Source: Chelatococcus reniformis (GTDB lineage Bacteria > Pseudomonadota > Alphaproteobacteria > Rhizobiales > Beijerinckiaceae). From it: a DNA stretch of 64,000 nucleotides. Positions 2,763-12,482 of this stretch are shown one piece after another (the stretch's first letter is position 1; each line of letters opens with the position of its first letter). The notes under the pieces were generated by a model, which saw nothing but the letters and a program-made list of their open reading frames with translations, was not told the DNA's origin and did not search any database. The position numbers and the translations under genes are program-made. The DNA lies in assembly GCF_014640075.1 (NCBI RefSeq), contig NZ_BMGG01000002.1, positions 558,001 through 622,000 on the forward strand, in the 5' to 3' direction.

Positions 2763-3542
2763 GCCGCGCGGCTCGACGACGAGGCTCTGGACGGCGCGGC
2801 CGAAATAGCCTGTCACATCCCCTAGGCGGGCGGCGGCGATGCCGGCACCGTCCGGTCCGAGCCAGGTCTGCGCGTTGAGCAGGATCCAATCACCAACGGG
2901 CTCCCGGGCGAGGCTGACTGTGAGGTCGCCGTTGATGAACGTCCAGTGGCGGAAGTCGAGCACGGACGACACGCCGTTGGAGAAATCGCTCGCGATCGCC
3001 GCGCGCATGGCCTGCGAGACCGGGCTGCCCTCGACAATGGTGCGATCGACACGGAACCACACCGCGCCAGGCCCCGGCTGGCGGAAACCGCCCCGTGCGG
3101 TGCGCGCCGAGAGGCCGGTGATGAAGGGGTTGCCGATGCCGCCCTCCGGATCCATGGGCTCGCAGGCGTCCGGCAGCTGCAGATCGAGCGGCGGCACCGC
3201 GCCGGCATCACCGGGCAGAGGCGTCTCGGTCCGGCGGATCTTCAGCACAGAGGCGCGCACCACCTCGACGCCCTTGGCCAGCAGCCGCACGCCGCAGAGC
3301 TGAATCTTGCGGCCGGCTCTCAGCACCTCGGTCTTGAGCTCGAGCTCGCCGATCGGCACCGGACGCATGAGATCCACGGTCAGCCGCGCCACCTGCATCG
3401 GCACCGCCGTTTCCATGCGCTCAGCCGCCCAGATCGCCAGCGAGGAGGGCGCCGAGCCGTGCTGCATGGACAGGTCCCACGGACCAGCCGCCAGCGGGCT
3501 GGCCAGAACGGACTCGCCGTTGACGCGGAACACCGTATCCAT
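2760..3542 (-). CDS. Acyl-CoA thioesterase-like double-hotdog protein
   Basis: 260 residues from ATG at 3542. The first half (GPWDLSMQHGSAPSSLAIWAA, then LTVDLMRPVPIGELELKTEV and RAGRKIQLCGVRLLAKG) follows the TesB-like/4HBT_3 pattern: a helix with substrate-pocket residues and strands bearing the 'D-x-x-R-P-V-P' motif. The second half repeats the fold (RTIVEGSPVSQAMRAAIASD, DFRHWTFINGDLTV). Such proteins hydrolyse acyl-CoA thioesters or bind acyl groups. It lies 136 bases downstream of an SDR gene on the same strand and may share its transcript, suggesting acyl-CoA or steroid-like catabolism. The stop codon TAG belongs to repeat copy A, so the natural C-terminus may have been altered by its insertion. 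Confidence 0.8.
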   Translation of the reverse strand: MDTVFRVNGESVLASPLAAGPWDLSMQHGSAPSSLAIWAAERMETAVPMQVARLTVDLMRPVPIGELELKTEVLRAGRKIQLCGVRLLAKGVEVVRASVLKIRRTETPLPGDAGAVPPLDLQLPDACEPMDPEGGIGNPFITGLSARTARGGFRQPGPGAVWFRVDRTIVEGSPVSQAMRAAIASDFSNGVSSVLDFRHWTFINGDLTVSLAREPVGDWILLNAQTWLGPDGAGIAAARLGDVTGYFGRAVQSLVVEPRG

Positions 3543-3678
3543 GGCCTGCTGCCTCCTCGGGGGAATCGATGCGCCGCAATACGGCGCATCGATCCGATCG
3601 GCAACCGGCGCGGGCCGCGGGGCGGAGGCTGGCGGCCGCCCGCACCAGGCATGGCAGCGGCGATGGTGCCCCGCCGAC

Positions 3679-4419
3679 TCAGCCCATGCCGCCGTCGCAG
3701 CGCAGGATCGCCCCCGTGGTGAAGCTCGACGCGTCGCTCGCCAGGTAGAGCGCCGAGGTGACGATTTCCTCCGGCCGCCCCGGCCGTCCCAGCGAGTTGT
3801 CGGACGTGGTGCGCTTCTCCTCGGTCCAGGCCTTGGAGATGTCCGTGAGGAAGGGTCCCGCGGAGATGGCGTTGACCCGCACCTTCGGCCCGTATTCACG
3901 CGCCAGCGACACCGTCATGGCGTTGAGCGCGGCCTTGGCGCCGGAATACGGCACCACCGTCGGCAGCGGCACCAGCGCGCCGCTCGACGAGATGTTGATG
4001 ATGGAGCCGCCTTCGCCGTCGGCCATCCGCTTGGCCACCAGCGATGCGAGCCGGAACGGCCCTTTGAAGTTCAGCGAGACGATCTTGTCGAACATCGCTT
4101 CGTTCATCTCGTGCGAGGGGATGGCGGGCGACATGCCGGCATTGTTGACGAGGATGTCGATGCGGCCGAAGTGGGCGTAGCAGGCGTCGGCAAGCCGATC
4201 CATCTCGTCCCAACGGCTGGCGTTGACGGAAATCGCCAGGGCCCGCCGGCCGAGTTGCTCAACCTCCTTCGCGGCCGCCTCGCAAGCATCGAGCTTGCGG
4301 CTGGCGATGACCACGTCCGCCCCCCGCTGGGCAAAGGCGCGAACCATCTGCAGGCCCAAGCCCCGCGAGCCCCCCGTGACGACGGCGACCTTCCCCTTCA
4401 GGCTGAACAAATCGTCCAT
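3679..4419 (-). CDS. SDR family oxidoreductase
   Basis: 246 residues, usual length for a classical short-chain dehydrogenase. TGGSRGLG near residue 15 binds the dinucleotide, VNNAG is the structural motif near residue 90, NISSSGA supplies the catalytic serine and PYSGAK the Tyr-x-x-x-Lys pair. The end (GAILRCDGGMG) is typical of the family. Reaction: NAD(P)-dependent oxidation or reduction of an alcohol/ketone; the substrate is unknown. A good Shine-Dalgarno (GGAGGAAC) precedes the ATG at 4419. With the thioesterase downstream it may work on an acyl-CoA intermediate, which is inference. Confidence 0.93.
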   Translation of the reverse strand: MDDLFSLKGKVAVVTGGSRGLGLQMVRAFAQRGADVVIASRKLDACEAAAKEVEQLGRRALAISVNASRWDEMDRLADACYAHFGRIDILVNNAGMSPAIPSHEMNEAMFDKIVSLNFKGPFRLASLVAKRMADGEGGSIINISSSGALVPLPTVVPYSGAKAALNAMTVSLAREYGPKVRVNAISAGPFLTDISKAWTEEKRTTSDNSLGRPGRPEEIVTSALYLASDASSFTTGAILRCDGGMG

Positions 4420-4583
4420 GTGACGTTCCTCCGCGTTTGCGTTGTCGTAGCACTTGTTCCTTATCCCAAGGCGACGCGGGTCGGCCACTGTTCGCCGCCG
4501 ACGGCGGCGCAGTGCGAGCCCGGTCCGCGTGCATGGCGGCAGCCAAGGAAGCCCACCCGCGTCGCCGAAGGCCCGGGCTCGGT

Positions 4584-6236
4584 TCACACTCGACCGGAGG
4601 CGGGCCCGCGGAGCAGGAAATCCGTGACCTCGTCGGAGAAGCGCTTGCGGTACCCCTCAATGACGACGTCGGCCCCGCCGGCCGGATCGGGCTGCGCCAT
4701 GGGCATGCCGTGGGCGACGAGCGCTTCGGCGCAGCCGAGCCAGTCCCCGCCGTCGACGGGCTCGTTGCACGAGGCCCAGGAGAGCGTGCCGCAGGCGTTG
4801 TCGCCGAAACCATGCCGTTCCCGCCAGCTTGCCCCGTGCTCGAGCAAGAACCGCGTGAGCGCCGCATCGCCGCGGAACACCGCGTGGTTCAGTGCCGAGG
4901 CGTTCCAGTCACCGCCCGTCGTCGCGATCGGCCAGCCGAGCTCGACCATGAGCCGCACGGGCTCGCCGCAGCCCAGCGCGGCCAGCTCCGGCAGCACGCG
5001 CAGCTGACTGGCGGTGAACTCGGCCATGAGGCCGCCGCGCCGTGCCAGCAGCCGGCGGGCGCGGGCCCTGTCGCCACGTGCGCAGGCGGTGATGAACTGC
5101 TCGGTGTCGGAGATCGGTCCTCCGGCATCGGAAGGCAGGAGCTCCGCCACATCCGGCAACCCGAGCCGGAGTGCCAGCGTATGGGCGCTGGTGCCGTCCC
5201 GCGTGCGAGCTGCCGGGTCGGCGCCGGCCGCCAGCAGCGCGGCGATGTGTGCCGGTGACCGGCGTCGCCGGATCGCCCACAGCAGCGGCGAGCCGCTATG
5301 GGCGGTCGGCGCACCCGGGGCCGGCTCGTTGGGATTGGCGCCGTACGACAGCAGCAGCCGCAACCCGTCGATGCTGTCGAGATCGAGAATGCGATAGACG
5401 GCATTCGAGCCGGCGATACGCGCGCCCGCGGCCAGCAGGCGCCGCGTGCAGTCCAGGCTCTCCAGCGCGTGATAGAGCGACTCGCCGTCGTTCGGATTGG
5501 CCCCTGCCGTCAGCAGCAGGTCCGTCAGCTCGCCATCGTGGTTCTGCCCGGCCGCACCGTAGAGCGCCGACAGCCGGACCTCCTCCGCGGGCTGGCTCAG
5601 CGAGGCCGGCGGCGAGCGGCTGCCAGCCGACTGGTTTGGGTGCGCCCCCGCGTCCAGCAGCAGCCGGGCGCAGGCGTGCAGGCGTTCGCGGAAGGCGGGC
5701 AACCGCGCGAGGCTGGAATGCGTGACGGCGACCAGTGGCGGCAGGTCGAGCGCGCCGCCGGAGCGATTGACCCATTGCGGATCGTCTTCCGTTGCACGGC
5801 GCAGGACGGCTATGTCGCCGGCGGCGCATGCGAGATACGGGTCGTCACCGACGAAGCCGGGGGCCTCGTCCAAAACCATGGCCGCCACCCGCGGCCTGGC
5901 ACGGCTCGTTCCGCCGGCGAGATCGCCCGCATAGACGAGCCGCAGCCAGTCGAGAGGAGAGGGGACGCGGCCGGATGCCCGCGCGACGCGTGCCTCCACA
6001 TAGATCTTCAGATCCGTCCACGAGGGAAAGCCGTACTCACGCGCCACGCATGATTGCGCATCGTGGAGGCGTAGGCCGAGCTTCCTGACTGCGGCATCGT
6101 CCTTCCCCACCGCCGCGGGCAAGCCGTCGCGTATACGGGCAAGCGCGGCCGCGTCGCCGCTCCTGTAGCGCGCCAGCAGGTCCTTCGCCTGCTTCCTCAA
6201 ATGGTCGAGATTGGGCCTGTCGGTGAGCCGCTTCAT
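4584..6236 (-). CDS. Ankyrin-repeat protein
   Basis: 550 residues from ATG at 6236, preceded by GGAGGT. Residues 1-80 form a conserved-looking N-terminal helical module (KRLTDRPNLDHLRKQAKDLL, then VAREYGFPSWTDLKIYVEAR) found on several bacterial ankyrin proteins. From about residue 125 on there are repeated ankyrin units with motifs such as LLLDAGAHPN, LLLTAGANPN, LLLSYGANPN, ALLAAGADP and FLLEHGAS. No signal peptide or membrane segment is seen, so a cytoplasmic protein-binding role is likely. Nothing nearby reveals the partner. Ankyrin proteins in bacteria range from housekeeping scaffolds to effectors; the sequence does not decide between them. Confidence 0.88.
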   Translation of the reverse strand: MKRLTDRPNLDHLRKQAKDLLARYRSGDAAALARIRDGLPAAVGKDDAAVRKLGLRLHDAQSCVAREYGFPSWTDLKIYVEARVARASGRVPSPLDWLRLVYAGDLAGGTSRARPRVAAMVLDEAPGFVGDDPYLACAAGDIAVLRRATEDDPQWVNRSGGALDLPPLVAVTHSSLARLPAFRERLHACARLLLDAGAHPNQSAGSRSPPASLSQPAEEVRLSALYGAAGQNHDGELTDLLLTAGANPNDGESLYHALESLDCTRRLLAAGARIAGSNAVYRILDLDSIDGLRLLLSYGANPNEPAPGAPTAHSGSPLLWAIRRRRSPAHIAALLAAGADPAARTRDGTSAHTLALRLGLPDVAELLPSDAGGPISDTEQFITACARGDRARARRLLARRGGLMAEFTASQLRVLPELAALGCGEPVRLMVELGWPIATTGGDWNASALNHAVFRGDAALTRFLLEHGASWRERHGFGDNACGTLSWASCNEPVDGGDWLGCAEALVAHGMPMAQPDPAGGADVVIEGYRKRFSDEVTDFLLRGPASGRV

Positions 6237-6461
6237 GGCAACCTCCGTGCATGATCCGCCGACGACCCGCAAATCCGGCTGCACAAAGGCTTGATGGCCA
6301 GCTCAGTAAGGCAAGTGGGTTCAACCCTTCCCGCGGGTCCGGGTGCGGCTTGCTCCGCTGCGGTGCAGGCTACGGCACGGGGGATGGCACGGTCAATTCG
6401 GTGGGGGCAACCGGCGGGGCGGTGGCTCCGGCCGGCCGTCCAGCCGCAACGCTCTAGCCGA

Positions 6462-7508
6462 TCAATGGTTCGGTAAGAGACGCGACAGTGGCCCGCTCAC
6501 GATGCACTGAAGGCCAGCGGCATCAAACACAAGCTCGGGGGGGCGCCCGAAGAGGCCTGTCAAGGCAGCGCGTATATAGCGGGTTCCATATCCAGTTCGC
6601 GACGGTGCCACGACGGCGGGGCCTCCGGTTTCGATCCATCTGATCGTCAGATCCGGATCCGCGCCGGCGGACAGCTCCCAATTCAATAGAACATGTCCTT
6701 CCGGACTGGACAGGGCACCATATTTAATCGCGTTGGTAGCGAATTCGTGCAGACAAAGGGCCAGGGTTGTTGCTGGCTCGCGCGAAACCGAGAGGTGAGG
6801 GCCATCGATCAAGATTCGGGTCAGTTCTTCGGAGCGGTACGGCGCGAGAGTGGAATTCACGATATCCGCCAATGGCACCTCCTCCCCTCCAGCAAGAAAG
6901 ACCGCCGAGTGGACGTTGGACAGGGCCGTCAACCGGGCCCTAAAATCCTCCGACAATTCCTCAGTTGTCCCGCCCCTGCGCCGGGTCAACTCAAAAAGCG
7001 CCATTACGCTGGCGAGTATGTTTTTCACGCGGTGATTGAGTTCAAGCCGGAGTTCCGTCTCCCGCTCGAGATGGTCGCGAACCTCGCGCTGCCTGTACCG
7101 AGCCAGGAGGACCGACTGGATGCCGCTGACGAGTTCCAGGGCGGCGACGGGCCGCTGATAGAATAGCTGGCGCGAGCGCGGCCAAGCTGCGCCGAGCGTT
7201 GCCTGGATCCGAGCCTGCGAGGCGGCCCGGTCCACCAACACCACGATCGGGATCTCCGACCAGTTCGGCTGATCACCGAGGAACCGCGCGATCGTGGCGA
7301 TTGCGTCCTGATTGAGAGCCTCATGCGTGACGACCAACACGCCCGGAGATTCGGCCAGCAAATCGGCCAAGTCCTGTGCGCTTGTCGCTCGCGCCTTTAT
7401 CTTGTGTTCAAGAAGAAGTGTCTCCGTATAGGAAGCATCTTTTCGATATGGAGCCAGTATAAGAACCCAATCGAGGGTCCCTAAATCGTCCTGCTCGGCG
7501 TCGCTCAC
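6462..7508 (-). CDS. HWE-type histidine kinase with receiver-like N-terminus
   Basis: 348 residues. Residues about 12-130 look like a receiver-type alpha/beta fold (WVLILAPYRKD, VLVVTHEAL, IPIVVLVDRAA), but the usual phospho-acceptor Asp after strand 3 is not evident (VLVVTHEAL), so it is probably a pseudo-receiver. Residues about 140-345 are the HWE/HisKA_2 kinase: LNHRVKNILASV with H159, HEFATNAIKYG with N259, and WIETGG with W291 and E293. No membrane segment. Translation starts at GTG (7508) inside the stop of the KaiC-like gene (sequence GTGA), so the two are co-translated. It probably phosphorylates a response regulator that is not encoded in this window. Confidence 0.92.
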   Translation of the reverse strand: MSDAEQDDLGTLDWVLILAPYRKDASYTETLLLEHKIKARATSAQDLADLLAESPGVLVVTHEALNQDAIATIARFLGDQPNWSEIPIVVLVDRAASQARIQATLGAAWPRSRQLFYQRPVAALELVSGIQSVLLARYRQREVRDHLERETELRLELNHRVKNILASVMALFELTRRRGGTTEELSEDFRARLTALSNVHSAVFLAGGEEVPLADIVNSTLAPYRSEELTRILIDGPHLSVSREPATTLALCLHEFATNAIKYGALSSPEGHVLLNWELSAGADPDLTIRWIETGGPAVVAPSRTGYGTRYIRAALTGLFGRPPELVFDAAGLQCIVSGPLSRLLPNH

Positions 7509-8944
7509 GTGTCGGGCAAGGGATTGTAGGCAATGACCGAGACTCCGGAACTCGCTATCGAAAGCTCTCGGACGTCCAGGTCGTGCGGACCATGACGCTT
7601 TTTGACGACCGTGATGCTGCGCCGGAGCCGGCCCTCGTGCTCCATCATCCGAAGGAGGAGAACGGTATCGCCCAAGAAGCTGACATCGACATCGATCCCG
7701 ACATTCTGTCCGAGCAATCCGTGCTGCGCGACGATGAGCATCGTCAACACATCCGCGCGCGCGAGATGCTTCAGAAGCGACTGGATATCGAGCACCGCCT
7801 TTTCGCGATGGGGAAGTGAGTTCAGATAGCCGGTGAAGCTGTCGATGACCACGACTCGCGTCTTGTTGCGCTCGACGACCTGCTGGACGATCTGACCGAA
7901 CTCTCCTGGTGAGACTTGATTTGGGCTGAAATCATGGATGACGAGTTGACCATCCTCGTGAAACTTACGAAGGTTCATGCCCAAACCTTCGGACCGCCGA
8001 AAGAAGGTCTCGAGCCGTTCCTCAAAGAGGAATAGCGCGACGCCTTCGCCACGCTGCAGCGCGGCGGTCGCATAGAGCGATGACATCGTCGACTTGCCGG
8101 TGCCGGACTGACCGATGACAAGCGTTATGGTTCCGGATTCCTGCCCTCCCCCGAACATCTCGTCGAGGGCCTCAACCCCTGATTTGATCAGTTGCGGCTT
8201 GACGATCTCTCCGCTGGAGCCGGGCACGATCCTCGGGAACACGACGATGCCATCTCCTTCCCGAATGGCCATATCGTGGTAGCCGTCGACGACGGCGACG
8301 CCCCGCATTTTACTCACCTCGATGCGACGACGTACGGCGCCGTACTCTTCGAGCGCCTTGTCGAGGCGAATCACGCCATGGGCAATACCCTCAATTTCTT
8401 CGCCGTTGTGATCACCGCCGCTGGTTTGCGTGTCGAGCAGGAGCGCCACGATCCCGCGCCGGGCCAGGAAAGCCTTGAAGCCAATGAGCTCACGTCGGAA
8501 ACGAGGGGCATCGCCGGTGATCAATCGGATCTCCAGTAACGAATCGTAGACCAATCGATGCGGCCTATGTTCCTCGATCGCGCTCTCGATCGCCTTCCGG
8601 GTTTCGTCCAAGCGAAGTTCCGACGTCTGAAATATTGTTTGATCGGCGGCGCCATTCACCGGTTCCGACGCCGACAGTTCCTCAATGCGGATGCCCTCGA
8701 GCGTCCACCCGTGCGACGAAGCTATGGCTTGAAGTTCGGCCGCACTTTGCGAGAGGCTGACATAGATGCAACGCTCGCCTGCTTCTACGCCTGCGCGCAA
8801 GAACTGAAGCGCGGCTGTTGTCTTACCGGCCCCCGGATCGCCCTGCACAATGTAGAGATTTGCCGCCGGCAATCCGCCACGTAGTATGTCATCAAGTCCC
8901 GCGATGCCCGAACTCACCGTGGGTTGCTTCTTTCCTTCTGTCAT
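7505..8944 (-). CDS. KaiC-like double-domain RecA-fold ATPase
   Basis: 479 residues, close to cyanobacterial KaiC (about 520). Two RecA-like domains are present. Domain 1: Walker A GDPGAGKTT from residue 35, Walker B region LVYDS near 131-135. Domain 2: Walker A GQSGTGKST at 278-286, FEER with E308/E309, Walker B VVVIDSF at 364-370. In domain 1 the paired glutamates that activate water are replaced by LSQS (about 63-67). The stretch DVSFLGDTVLLL (420-431) aligns with the KaiC phosphorylation loop: S422 takes the place of Ser431 and F423 that of Thr432. No kaiA or kaiB is seen. Start ATG 8944 follows GAAGGCAGC. The stop overlaps the histidine kinase start. Likely role: ATP-driven timing or stress-state sensor feeding that kinase; this is inference. 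Confidence 0.92.
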   Translation of the reverse strand: MTEGKKQPTVSSGIAGLDDILRGGLPAANLYIVQGDPGAGKTTAALQFLRAGVEAGERCIYVSLSQSAAELQAIASSHGWTLEGIRIEELSASEPVNGAADQTIFQTSELRLDETRKAIESAIEEHRPHRLVYDSLLEIRLITGDAPRFRRELIGFKAFLARRGIVALLLDTQTSGGDHNGEEIEGIAHGVIRLDKALEEYGAVRRRIEVSKMRGVAVVDGYHDMAIREGDGIVVFPRIVPGSSGEIVKPQLIKSGVEALDEMFGGGQESGTITLVIGQSGTGKSTMSSLYATAALQRGEGVALFLFEERLETFFRRSEGLGMNLRKFHEDGQLVIHDFSPNQVSPGEFGQIVQQVVERNKTRVVVIDSFTGYLNSLPHREKAVLDIQSLLKHLARADVLTMLIVAQHGLLGQNVGIDVDVSFLGDTVLLLRMMEHEGRLRRSITVVKKRHGPHDLDVRELSIASSGVSVIAYNPLPDT

Positions 8945-9252
8945 GCTGCCTTCGCTCTCACAACGGGAAGCTGTAGGTCGGCTATGCGACTCACATCCGT
9001 GGATATACCCGGGGCTCACTTTGCGGTGAGGCGGCAGGAAAGGTACACGACCACTTGTCTAGGGGAAGCCCCAGTGTGAGGCAAGAGACAGACGAGGAGC
9101 CGAGGTGCCGGGCCATTCGTCCCGCTTCACCTCCGTGCCGGCGCGTCGAGGTCGTCGATCCGTGACCCGCGTCGTGGCTCGAAAACGAGCTGCAACGTAC
9201 ATTTGCGCTGCGGCGAAGGTAGAGTTCGGCAGCGGCCGGCATCGCAGCCTTT
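8945..9252. other. Non-coding stretch upstream of the kaiC-like gene
   Basis: About 308 bases between the KaiC-like start and the tRNA-Glu 3' end. No convincing gene is seen on either strand. It must hold the promoter of the kaiC-kinase pair. On the minus strand a TATA-containing stretch (GGGTATATCC, around 9004-9013) lies about 60 bases before the start codon and might be a -10 region, but no matching -35 stands out. I looked for the alphaproteobacterial general-stress pattern (GGAAC with CGTT about 16-17 bases later) and did not find it. Confidence 0.4.
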
Positions 9253-9327
9253 TGGCGCGCCCAAGGGGAGTCGAACCCCTCTCTCCAGCGTGAAAGGCTG
9301 GCGTCCTAACCGATAGACGATGGGCGC
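9253..9327 (-). tRNA. tRNA-Glu (anticodon UUC)
   Basis: Read on the minus strand: acceptor arm GCGCCCA pairs with TGGGCGC, discriminator G, then an encoded CCA (9253-9255). The anticodon stem CCAGC/GCTGG encloses the loop CTTTCAC with anticodon TTC. The T arm is GGGG-TTCGACT-CCCC. Length is 72 bases without CCA. It stands alone between the kaiC-like region and the sirtuin gene; no integrase or att-like duplicate was seen next to it. Confidence 0.97.
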
Positions 9328-11061: not shown

Positions 11062-11523
11062 ATGAAGACGATCTCCCTGCGACGGGCCCTCGCACTCGTC
11101 CTCGCATTGGGCGTCGTCGCCCTCGTCGGGGTTGCACGTGCCGCGGCGCTCGAGCCTTTGACGGTGATCACGGCGACGGGCCGCCACAGCTTCACCGTCG
11201 AGGTCATGCGCAGCGAGGACGAGCGCGAGCGCGGCCTGATGTTCCGCGGCTATCTGCCTGCGGACCGCGGCATGCTCTTCGACTTCAAGGCCACCGAGCC
11301 GGTGTCCATGTGGATGAAGGACACCTTCATTTCGCTCGACATGCTGTTCATCCGCAGGGACGGCACCATTGCCCGCATCGTCGAGAACACCGAACCGCAG
11401 TCGACACGGATCATTTCCTCGGGCGAGAACGTACTCAGCGTCCTCGAGGTGAATGCGGGCACGGCGGCGCGGATCGGCGCCAAGCCGGGAGACCGCGTCG
11501 TTCACGGGCTGTTCGAAAGATGA
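11062..11523 (+). CDS. DUF192 family exported protein
   Basis: 153 residues from ATG 11062; another ATG nine bases upstream is equally possible. Residues 1-29 form a clear signal peptide ending in GVARAAA. The mature part holds the DUF192 signature: RSEDERERGLMFR, MLFDF, MWMKDTFISLDMLFI and the C-terminal VLEVNAG with GAKPGDRV. The biochemical function of the family is not established. It is probably periplasmic. Its last 22 bases overlap, tail to tail, the end of the convergent histidine kinase gene, so little room is left for a terminator between them. Confidence 0.9.
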   Translation: MKTISLRRALALVLALGVVALVGVARAAALEPLTVITATGRHSFTVEVMRSEDERERGLMFRGYLPADRGMLFDFKATEPVSMWMKDTFISLDMLFIRRDGTIARIVENTEPQSTRIISSGENVLSVLEVNAGTAARIGAKPGDRVVHGLFER

Positions 11524-12482
11524 GAGGCGACGATCGCGTCGGGCTTGAGACGGATCGTGGCACGCACACCATCAGCCTCGAAGGCGAGACTGGCTTCGCC
11601 CAGGCGCCGCGGCAGCGCGTTCTGCAGCAGCCGTGAGCCAAAGCCGACGGCGACGGGGACGGCAACGGCCGGGCCTCCGCTCTCCTTCCATTCGATCGTG
11701 ACCCCGCGCCCGGCCCGCTCCCACTGGAGGCTGATCCGTCCGCAATGGGACCCCAGGGCGCCGTGCTTGATCGCGTTGGTGGCGAGTTCATGCAGGATCA
11801 GGGCGAGCGGCGTCGCCGCTTGATGATCGACGTTCAGCGCGGGGCCGGCGAGCCTGAACCGTCCGTCCGTCTCGAACGAAGCGACGACGCGCGCCAGCAA
11901 CTGCGGCAGGGGCACATTGCCGGCAGCCCGCTCACTGATGATCGCCTGCGCCTCGAGCAGGGCGCCGAGGCGAGGCGCGAAGGCGGCTTCGAAGGCTGCG
12001 ACGGTCTCGGTCCGGCGCGCCGTCTGTGCCACCAGGGCCTGCACTACGGCGAGAAGATTCTTGCTCCGGTGCTGCATTTCGGCGGCCAGGAGTTGCGCCT
12101 GCGCGTGGGCGGCCGCCAGATCGATGAGCGTGCGCCGGAACACGGCGCCGAGCCCCAGGAGCAAGCCGCCGAAGATCCAGTAGAGGCCGAGCAGGCCCCA
12201 TCCGATGAAGCTCCAGTCCGGTGCCACCAACTGGCGATAGAGGACGACCGCCGCCACCGTGCTGGCAAGAACCACCGTCACCCCGGCCGGCACGCCCCCC
12301 CAGATCGCCGCGATGATGACGGCGGGAAAGAAGGTCACGAACGGTCCGCTATTGGCCAGCGCGGAATGGAAGAGCAGGCGGAAGAGGATACCTGCGACGA
12401 CGCAGCCGACGGCCACGAGCCCGATCTCCCACCACCGCGGGCGGTCCCTCGCTATGAGGTCGATCCAGCCGCTGTATTTCAA
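11502..12482 (-). CDS. Membrane-bound HWE-type histidine kinase
   Basis: 326 residues. Residues about 18-118 contain roughly four hydrophobic segments (GLVAVGCVVAGILFRLLF; FVTFFPAVIIAAIWGG; GVTVVLASTVAAVVLY; GLLGLYWIFGGLLLGL), like the DUF4118 sensor module of KdpD-type kinases. The kinase part has MQHRSKNLLAVV (H138), HELATNAIKHG (N236) and WKESGGP, all HWE/HisKA_2 features. It would sense a membrane or internal signal and phosphorylate an unlinked regulator. No response regulator is adjacent. It is the second kinase of this family within 6 kb and shares the core motifs of the one at 6462-7508, but not its N-terminus. Confidence 0.9.
   Translation of the reverse strand: MKYSGWIDLIARDRPRWWEIGLVAVGCVVAGILFRLLFHSALANSGPFVTFFPAVIIAAIWGGVPAGVTVVLASTVAAVVLYRQLVAPDWSFIGWGLLGLYWIFGGLLLGLGAVFRRTLIDLAAAHAQAQLLAAEMQHRSKNLLAVVQALVAQTARRTETVAAFEAAFAPRLGALLEAQAIISERAAGNVPLPQLLARVVASFETDGRFRLAGPALNVDHQAATPLALILHELATNAIKHGALGSHCGRISLQWERAGRGVTIEWKESGGPAVAVPVAVGFGSRLLQNALPRRLGEASLAFEADGVRATIRLKPDAIVASHLSNSP

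Follow-up and report, generated by a model that had tools for sequence, protein, structure and literature searches.

A KaiC-like ATPase and its partner kinase with a predicted pseudoreceiver domain in the KaiB-free genome of Chelatococcus reniformis

Introduction

What do KaiC homologues do outside clocks? This open question is raised by two genes in the window, the whole 64,000-nucleotide stretch of Chelatococcus reniformis DNA analysed here (contig NZ_BMGG01000002.1, positions 558,001 to 622,000), in which a KaiC-like ATPase is directly followed by a histidine kinase of the HWE type. The pairing as such is not new: De Luca et al. described in 2011 a group in which kaiC, in the absence of KaiB, precedes a kinase gene with a characteristic N-terminal domain ('Nt_HK'), and their text also reports co-transcription of the Ramlibacter pair by RT-PCR and proposes an hourglass (PMC3164672). 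The module is thus known in outline since 2011. Added here are the fold of the kinase N-terminal domain, the exchange of the transmitter behind it and the loss of both CI glutamates in the window's clade, together with EcfG-like promoters in some alphaproteobacteria, stand-alone regulators in rhizobia, and spread on plasmids and at a tRNA gene. The literature that we searched gave no account of a receiver fold without catalytic residues, of transmitter exchange, of the CI change or of EcfG-like sites; work on Pseudomonas (Terrettaz 2023) may overlap.

Results

A gene pair sharing four nucleotides

The KaiC-like protein contains two stretches matching PF06745 (Pfam; whole-protein E 5.5e-75), aligns with the PDB KaiC 8zn5 at E 1.6e-50, and is encoded by the only gene in the genome with two near-full-length KaiC-domain matches. 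It scores 141.2 bits against the circ_KaiC equivalog model, the cut-off of which is 546.25. The kinase matches HWE_HK (Pfam; E 5.1e-22, 78.9 bits against a cut-off of 22.8) and the PDB entries 5epv (E 8.4e-28) and 6ph4 (E 3.3e-27); it carries the motifs HRVKN, HEFATNAIKYGA and RWIETGGP, which we take to be its HWE phosphoacceptor and ATPase region. Its GTG is the sole in-frame ATG, GTG or TTG from 60 nt ahead of the KaiC stop up to where the conserved N-terminal domain starts. Open reading frames, Pfam matches and the sequence itself therefore confirm what had been proposed for the pair, a double KaiC-domain ATPase and an HWE kinase whose ends share GTGA (Table 1). Of 117 KaiC/kinase pairs, 52 allow an xTGA overlap. 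A fusion of KaiC with the pseudoreceiver was not seen: a shared open frame was found in none of 87 loci, and elsewhere inspection was by eye alone.

Table 1. Positions, in window coordinates, of the gene pair, its functional sites and the adjacent tRNA gene.
Feature	Position	Strand	Basis and remarks
KaiC-like double RecA-fold ATPase (CI + CII)	7505-8944	(-)	ATG start, 479 aa
CI catalytic Glu pair site, codons S65-Q66-S67	8744-8752	(-)	First Glu = Ser, second = Gln; coordinates computed from ORF
CII catalytic pair F307-E308-E309, kept	8018-8026	(-)	Column counts
Positions of the cyanobacterial S431/T432 phosphosites, here S422-F423	7676-7681	(-)	Column counts
GTGA overlap (KaiC stop TGA, kinase start GTG)	7505-7508	(-)	From sequence
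HWE histidine kinase with predicted N-terminal pseudoreceiver	6462-7508	(-)	GTG start, 348 aa
Predicted pseudoreceiver (PsR) domain, about residues 15-140	7089-7466	(-)	AlphaFold2 and Foldseek
HWE phosphoacceptor and ATPase region	6462-7043	(-)	Pfam match 156-238, PDB alignment 153-342
tRNA-Glu(ttc)	9253-9327	(-)	ARAGORN; KaiC/kinase pair on its 3' side

KaiC and the N-terminal domain of the kinase form a widespread module

Is the pairing peculiar to this genome? A close KaiC orthologue (40-46% identity) occurs in 7 of 59 other relatives and was not found in two congeners. The N-terminal domain of the kinase, hereafter PsR, was detected at six of the seven orthologue loci by tblastn and at the seventh (L043) by translation of the partner and alignment. 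From a scan of GTDB genomes by KaiC similarity we took the best 80 of at least 568 relatives, and a PsR HMM matched directly downstream of KaiC in all 80 of them (worst E 1.8e-25). Because these loci were retrieved through KaiC similarity only, the recurrence of the pair lies beyond chance, and the conservation that had been in question holds among relatives. The 80 loci were ranked by likeness to the window and are therefore not a random sample, so we used two further genome sets that were blind to the genes. In the class set of 289 genomes, PsR matches at E 0.001 turned up in 134, most of them with scores typical of ordinary receivers. Set apart from these were 19 places, spread over 18 genomes (at least 112 bits; next 44.6), and all 19 adjoin a high-scoring KaiC, as judged by eye and with one KaiC split over two contigs. 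In the phylum set of 398 Pseudomonadota genomes, each of the 38 KaiCs scoring at least 631 bits adjoins a PsR, and 38 of the 40 PsR places adjoin such a KaiC; the two exceptions (L201, 4916-5293; L202, 4989-5393) are PsR kinases without an adjoining KaiC in genomes that also hold the full module. These KaiC counts leave out KaiCs at or below 256 bits, as well as a sister group scoring 404-418 bits, with one member in the class set and two in the phylum set, that pairs with another protein; since not every candidate in a genome is scored in these searches, misses are possible. The linkage holds where KaiC identity has fallen to about 40-45%, in rows that come from Pseudomonadota, Acidobacteriota, Planctomycetota, Verrucomicrobiota and Myxococcota. 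KaiC with a PsR kinase is a real and widespread module, of which the window carries the HWE variant.

At the sister KaiC loci (L174, 3061-6827; L203, 3943-7703; L204, 2235-5983), the N-terminal domain of the next protein belongs to no assigned family; inspection by eye showed GAF- and GGDEF-like regions in L174 and L203, and an EAL-like region in L174. This group possibly has the same layout with a cyclic-di-GMP output. Homology of PsR with the N-terminus of these GGDEF-EAL-type partners was considered and dropped (hhalign probability 1.8), and the PsR HMM gave no match in L174 (at E 0.1) or in L203 and L204 (at E 0.01). Nor was PsR found beside five distant KaiCs (L044-L048). One cyanobacterial MAG contig (Kaiparowitsia, L050) carries a KaiC 88% identical to that of the window; it is probably an alphaproteobacterial contaminant. 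KaiC relatives were not found among viral contigs.

The kinase N-terminus is modelled as a pseudoreceiver

The N-terminus of the kinase had been read as receiver-like, and structure prediction supports this. The AlphaFold2 model of the domain (pLDDT 90.7, pTM 0.86) has five alternating strands and helices, and the 50 PDB matches listed by Foldseek are without exception receivers or proteins that include one (TM to query 0.58-0.72), with neither KaiB nor SasA among them. At E 0.01, Pfam Response_reg matches none of the 88 PsR domains compared, two of which each match one unrelated Pfam family. Read from strand ends and not by superposition, the places of the acidic pair, the phospho-Asp and the Lys are taken by A19-P20, T61/H62 and R119. 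The modelled domain would accordingly be a receiver fold without phosphotransfer residues, that is, a pseudoreceiver. Residues D24, W83, P87, P120, R137 and Q140 are invariant in all 88, and R119 is nearly so. In the model of the full kinase, a single helix (123-176) links PsR to the dimerisation region.

The transmitter behind the pseudoreceiver is exchangeable

Transmitters of the 88 PsR kinases are of the HisKA (58) or HWE_HK (29) type, and 50 of the 88 contain a recognised receiver. On the KaiC tree, a quick tree with some long branches, transmitter type changes at least six times, and HWE versus other at least three. The HWE kinases of the window's clade (29 rows) belong to a single clade (SH-aLRT 99), while the remaining eight HWE rows entail three changes, which would fit three gains as well as a single gain with two losses. 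PsR stays with KaiC, whereas the transmitter behind it, HWE or HisKA, can be exchanged. Evolutionary distances of KaiC and PsR correlate across 106 pairs (r 0.88). Within the HDFNN rows (61/63) the correlation is 0.82 for KaiC-PsR, 0.66 for KaiC-transmitter and 0.59 for PsR-transmitter; within 32 HWE rows all three are about 0.95, and KaiC-PsR is not singled out. The window also encodes a second HWE kinase (11502-12482, minus strand) with hydrophobic, membrane-like N-terminal segments, which is 38.5% identical to the transmitter of the paired kinase over 192 residues.

Catalytic positions and clock features of KaiC

Residues were counted by alignment column in 88 KaiCs, that of the window and 87 aligned relatives. 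The Walker A lysines of both KaiC domains are invariant. Cyanobacterial KaiC has a pair of glutamates (EE) as the catalytic pair of CI (PMC5520375). At the first of these positions the glutamate is gone in 88 of 88 (S85/G2/A1), and at the second the residue is Glu in 61 and Gln in 27. Across 116 readable rows, the second-position Gln occurs in 30, namely 29 of the window's clade and one from Xanthomonas (L111). In CII, E309 is kept in all 88, and position 308 is Asp in 57 and Glu in 31. The glutamate pair that circadian KaiCs have in both domains is therefore present in the window protein as E-E in CII, CI reading S-Q. Having lost both CI glutamates, the KaiCs of the window's HWE clade are predicted to bind ATP in CI and to hydrolyse it poorly there; from the residue changes we infer that hydrolysis by CI may have been lost in this clade. 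The S431 position holds Ser in 72 and Thr in 16, and the T432 position Tyr in 63 and Phe in 25.

The absence of KaiB, noted before for the window, extends to the whole genome, since PF07689 has no match in an assembly of 6.81 Mb rated 100% complete. Of the 18 module genomes in the class set, 15 likewise lack KaiB; the KaiB matches of the remaining three are on contigs that carry another KaiC, one of lower score. The window KaiC ends 8-10 residues past the last position aligned to PDB KaiCs and hence has no C-terminal tail. The known oscillator thus has several features that this KaiC system lacks: KaiB, the Thr at position 432, the catalytic glutamates of CI and the C-terminal tail. We consider an energy-state or stress switch more likely than a clock.

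Candidate output regulators and EcfG-like promoters

Where might the phosphoryl group go? In the window's clade, ten rhizobial loci (L054, L055, L058, L062-L068) have a stand-alone receiver that starts 137-190 nt after the kinase, that of L067 being a fragment only. A second type of stand-alone receiver starts 26-80 nt after the kinase in L057, L061, L069 and L071, and in L059 and L072 a stand-alone receiver lies upstream. The retrieved stretch held no receiver gene at 11 of 28 HWE loci, including Bosea L049 and L052. In the window, Response_reg matches none of the 10 neighbouring open reading frames scanned, in keeping with the earlier suggestion that no output regulator sits beside the pair. 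Orthologues of the rhizobial stand-alone regulators were sought in the window genome and rejected: the best matches are just 38% and 34% identical and stand among many receivers, and we therefore name no cognate regulator.

The EcfG consensus GGAAC-N16/17-CGTT lies within 250 bp upstream of kaiC at nine sites across 117 loci, where 0.47 would be expected from its frequency in the remainder of these loci. Among the 68 rows labelled alphaproteobacterial there are eight, against 0.58 expected from just four background sites in stretches without open reading frames of at least 150 aa; L052 (Bosea) was counted as non-alphaproteobacterial because its class label is missing. Such a site is present upstream of kaiC neither in the window nor, overall, in 108 of the 117 loci.

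The pair lies beside a tRNA gene in a segment not found there in two congeners

The GC content of the KaiC/kinase pair (0.594) is below that of all 246 sliding windows of the same size (mean 0.672), and its GC3, at 0.68-0.70, is lower than the 0.78-0.89 of seven other genes. In two congeners (G001, G002), the match to window positions 2766-3542 sits 0.2 and 0.4 kb from tRNA-Glu, and positions 3543-9252 have no match in the 11.5 kb retrieved from them. The segment 3' of the tRNA gene, about 3543-9252, comprises an SDR, an ankyrin-repeat protein, the kinase and KaiC; the ankyrin-repeat gene (4584-6284, minus strand) lies directly downstream of the kinase and has no match in the two congeners. 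Since the GC-poor part is the KaiC/kinase pair alone, the pair may have arrived separately from the rest of the segment. A tRNA-derived repeat was not found at the far end of this islet. At E 1e-60, 224 plasmid records contain relatives, pSymA of S. meliloti 1021 among them.

Discussion

How might a KaiC homologue signal where KaiB is absent? We think it probable that KaiC and the kinase constitute a KaiB-less signalling module in which PsR docks the kinase on a KaiC ring, the nucleotide state of which sets kinase output. In this reading, the KaiC-like ATPase would assemble into a hexameric ring, onto which PsR would dock the kinase dimer; contact of kinase residues 1-130 with the ATPase is likely, judging from linkage and co-divergence. 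The nucleotide state of the ring, perhaps including phosphorylation of S422 by CII, would pass through the helix between PsR and the dimerisation region, and this signal would set autokinase activity. In the window's clade, CI would serve as an ATP-locked platform, with CII as the active site. A stand-alone response regulator would then receive the phosphoryl group; in many rhizobia its gene adjoins that of the kinase, and in the window genome it presumably lies elsewhere. The kinase would read the KaiC ring in the manner of SasA, but through a receiver fold, and the module would most likely report energy or stress state and not time of day.

A more far-reaching proposal, which we offer tentatively, is that PsR is an adaptor that plugs a KaiC ring into interchangeable kinases. 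CI of the clade would be ATP-locked and non-hydrolysing, a naturally occurring equivalent of the Glu-to-Gln mutants made in the laboratory; the ring would accordingly sense ATP/ADP through CII alone and feed the alphaproteobacterial stress network, as a KaiB-free KaiC that is not part of a clock.

Could the module nevertheless keep time? An hourglass or circadian timer, in which a KaiC-like self-phosphorylation cycle runs without KaiA and KaiB and the kinase reports its phase, was proposed for Ramlibacter in 2011 (PMC3164672), and it would fit the homology to KaiC, the catalytic residues kept in CII and the Ser or Thr at the 431 position. Against these stand the Tyr or Phe at the 432 position and the missing first CI glutamate, each in 88 of 88, together with the lack of a C-terminal tail and of KaiB in the window genome and most module genomes of the class set, and we regard such a timer as distinctly unlikely. 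Alternatively, the flow of information may be reversed, the kinase or its regulator being the input that controls assembly or ATPase activity of KaiC as the output, with PsR serving as a tether. The same KaiC/PsR linkage data would be expected, archaeal KaiC-like proteins have been proposed to be signalling hubs, and KaiC-REC fusions exist (PMC5847659); neighbouring genes were searched for receivers only, a search that could miss a KaiC effector. The receivers within 50 of 88 kinases and the stand-alone regulators behind HWE kinases fit an output by phosphotransfer, and we consider the reversed order unlikely.

Two further explanations concern the N-terminal domain and the linkage itself. The 2011 description would make the domain a KaiB/SasA-like KaiC-binding domain, given identities of 16% to SasA and 10% to KaiB; the same text gives 19% to a receiver (PMC3164672), and with a confident five-strand/helix model, and receivers or receiver-containing proteins, none of them KaiB or SasA, as the 50 PDB matches listed, this assignment is very unlikely. 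That the genes are chance neighbours, or travel jointly without functional contact, would suit a mobile pair found in plasmid records, an outlier in GC beside a tRNA gene and not found in congeners. A linkage that persists at such low KaiC identity across five phyla while transmitters are exchanged leaves this explanation scarcely credible. With a likely docking domain, a likely hydrolysing site, natural CI variants and an adjacent rhizobial regulator identified, the idea that the state of a KaiC ring controls a kinase becomes testable in vitro. The module also suggests how one sensor can move between kinases and genomes.

How does the pair compare with known systems? It is closest in layout to the 'dark-blue group' of De Luca et al. 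(Ramlibacter Rta_04330/Rta_04340), which likewise combines a KaiC with an SY, TY or SF phosphosite, a kinase with a specific N-domain and the lack of KaiB (PMC3164672). The S422-F423 of the window is a phosphosite of this kind, KaiC is directly followed by a kinase with the conserved N-domain in the window and in 87 further loci, and kaiB is absent elsewhere in the window genome, although not universally, as KaiB is present in three of the 18 class-set genomes with the module. The layout and the phosphosite type lead us to infer that the conserved domain is the RtaNt of that study. The legend there gives the kinases as HisKA plus HATPase_c, and the likeness to KaiB and SasA is stressed (PMC3164672), whereas the window pair has an HWE transmitter, a modelled pseudoreceiver and a CI that lost both glutamates. 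In the cyanobacterial SasA-KaiC system, a kinase is similarly thought to read the KaiC ring via its N-domain, a likeness that for the window pair would lie in the proposed mechanism; the SasA N-domain is KaiB-like (PMC3164672), and the window kinase has a predicted receiver fold in a KaiB-less genome. CikA and KaiA, both linked to KaiC, likewise carry pseudoreceivers, domains of receiver fold that take no part in phosphotransfer (PMC12632262). That of CikA binds KaiB, and the likeness of the window domain to them is one of predicted fold. In the Bradyrhizobium kaiC-kaiB-HK-CheY operon, too, a kinase and a stand-alone regulator are encoded close to KaiC, but this operon contains KaiB and a PAS/PAC kinase (PMC3899966). 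Finally, HWE kinases of the Brucella LOV-HK type share the transmitter, as the best PDB matches 5epv and 6ph4 indicate; there the sensor is a LOV domain, whereas in the window kinase its place is taken by a predicted pseudoreceiver beside KaiC.
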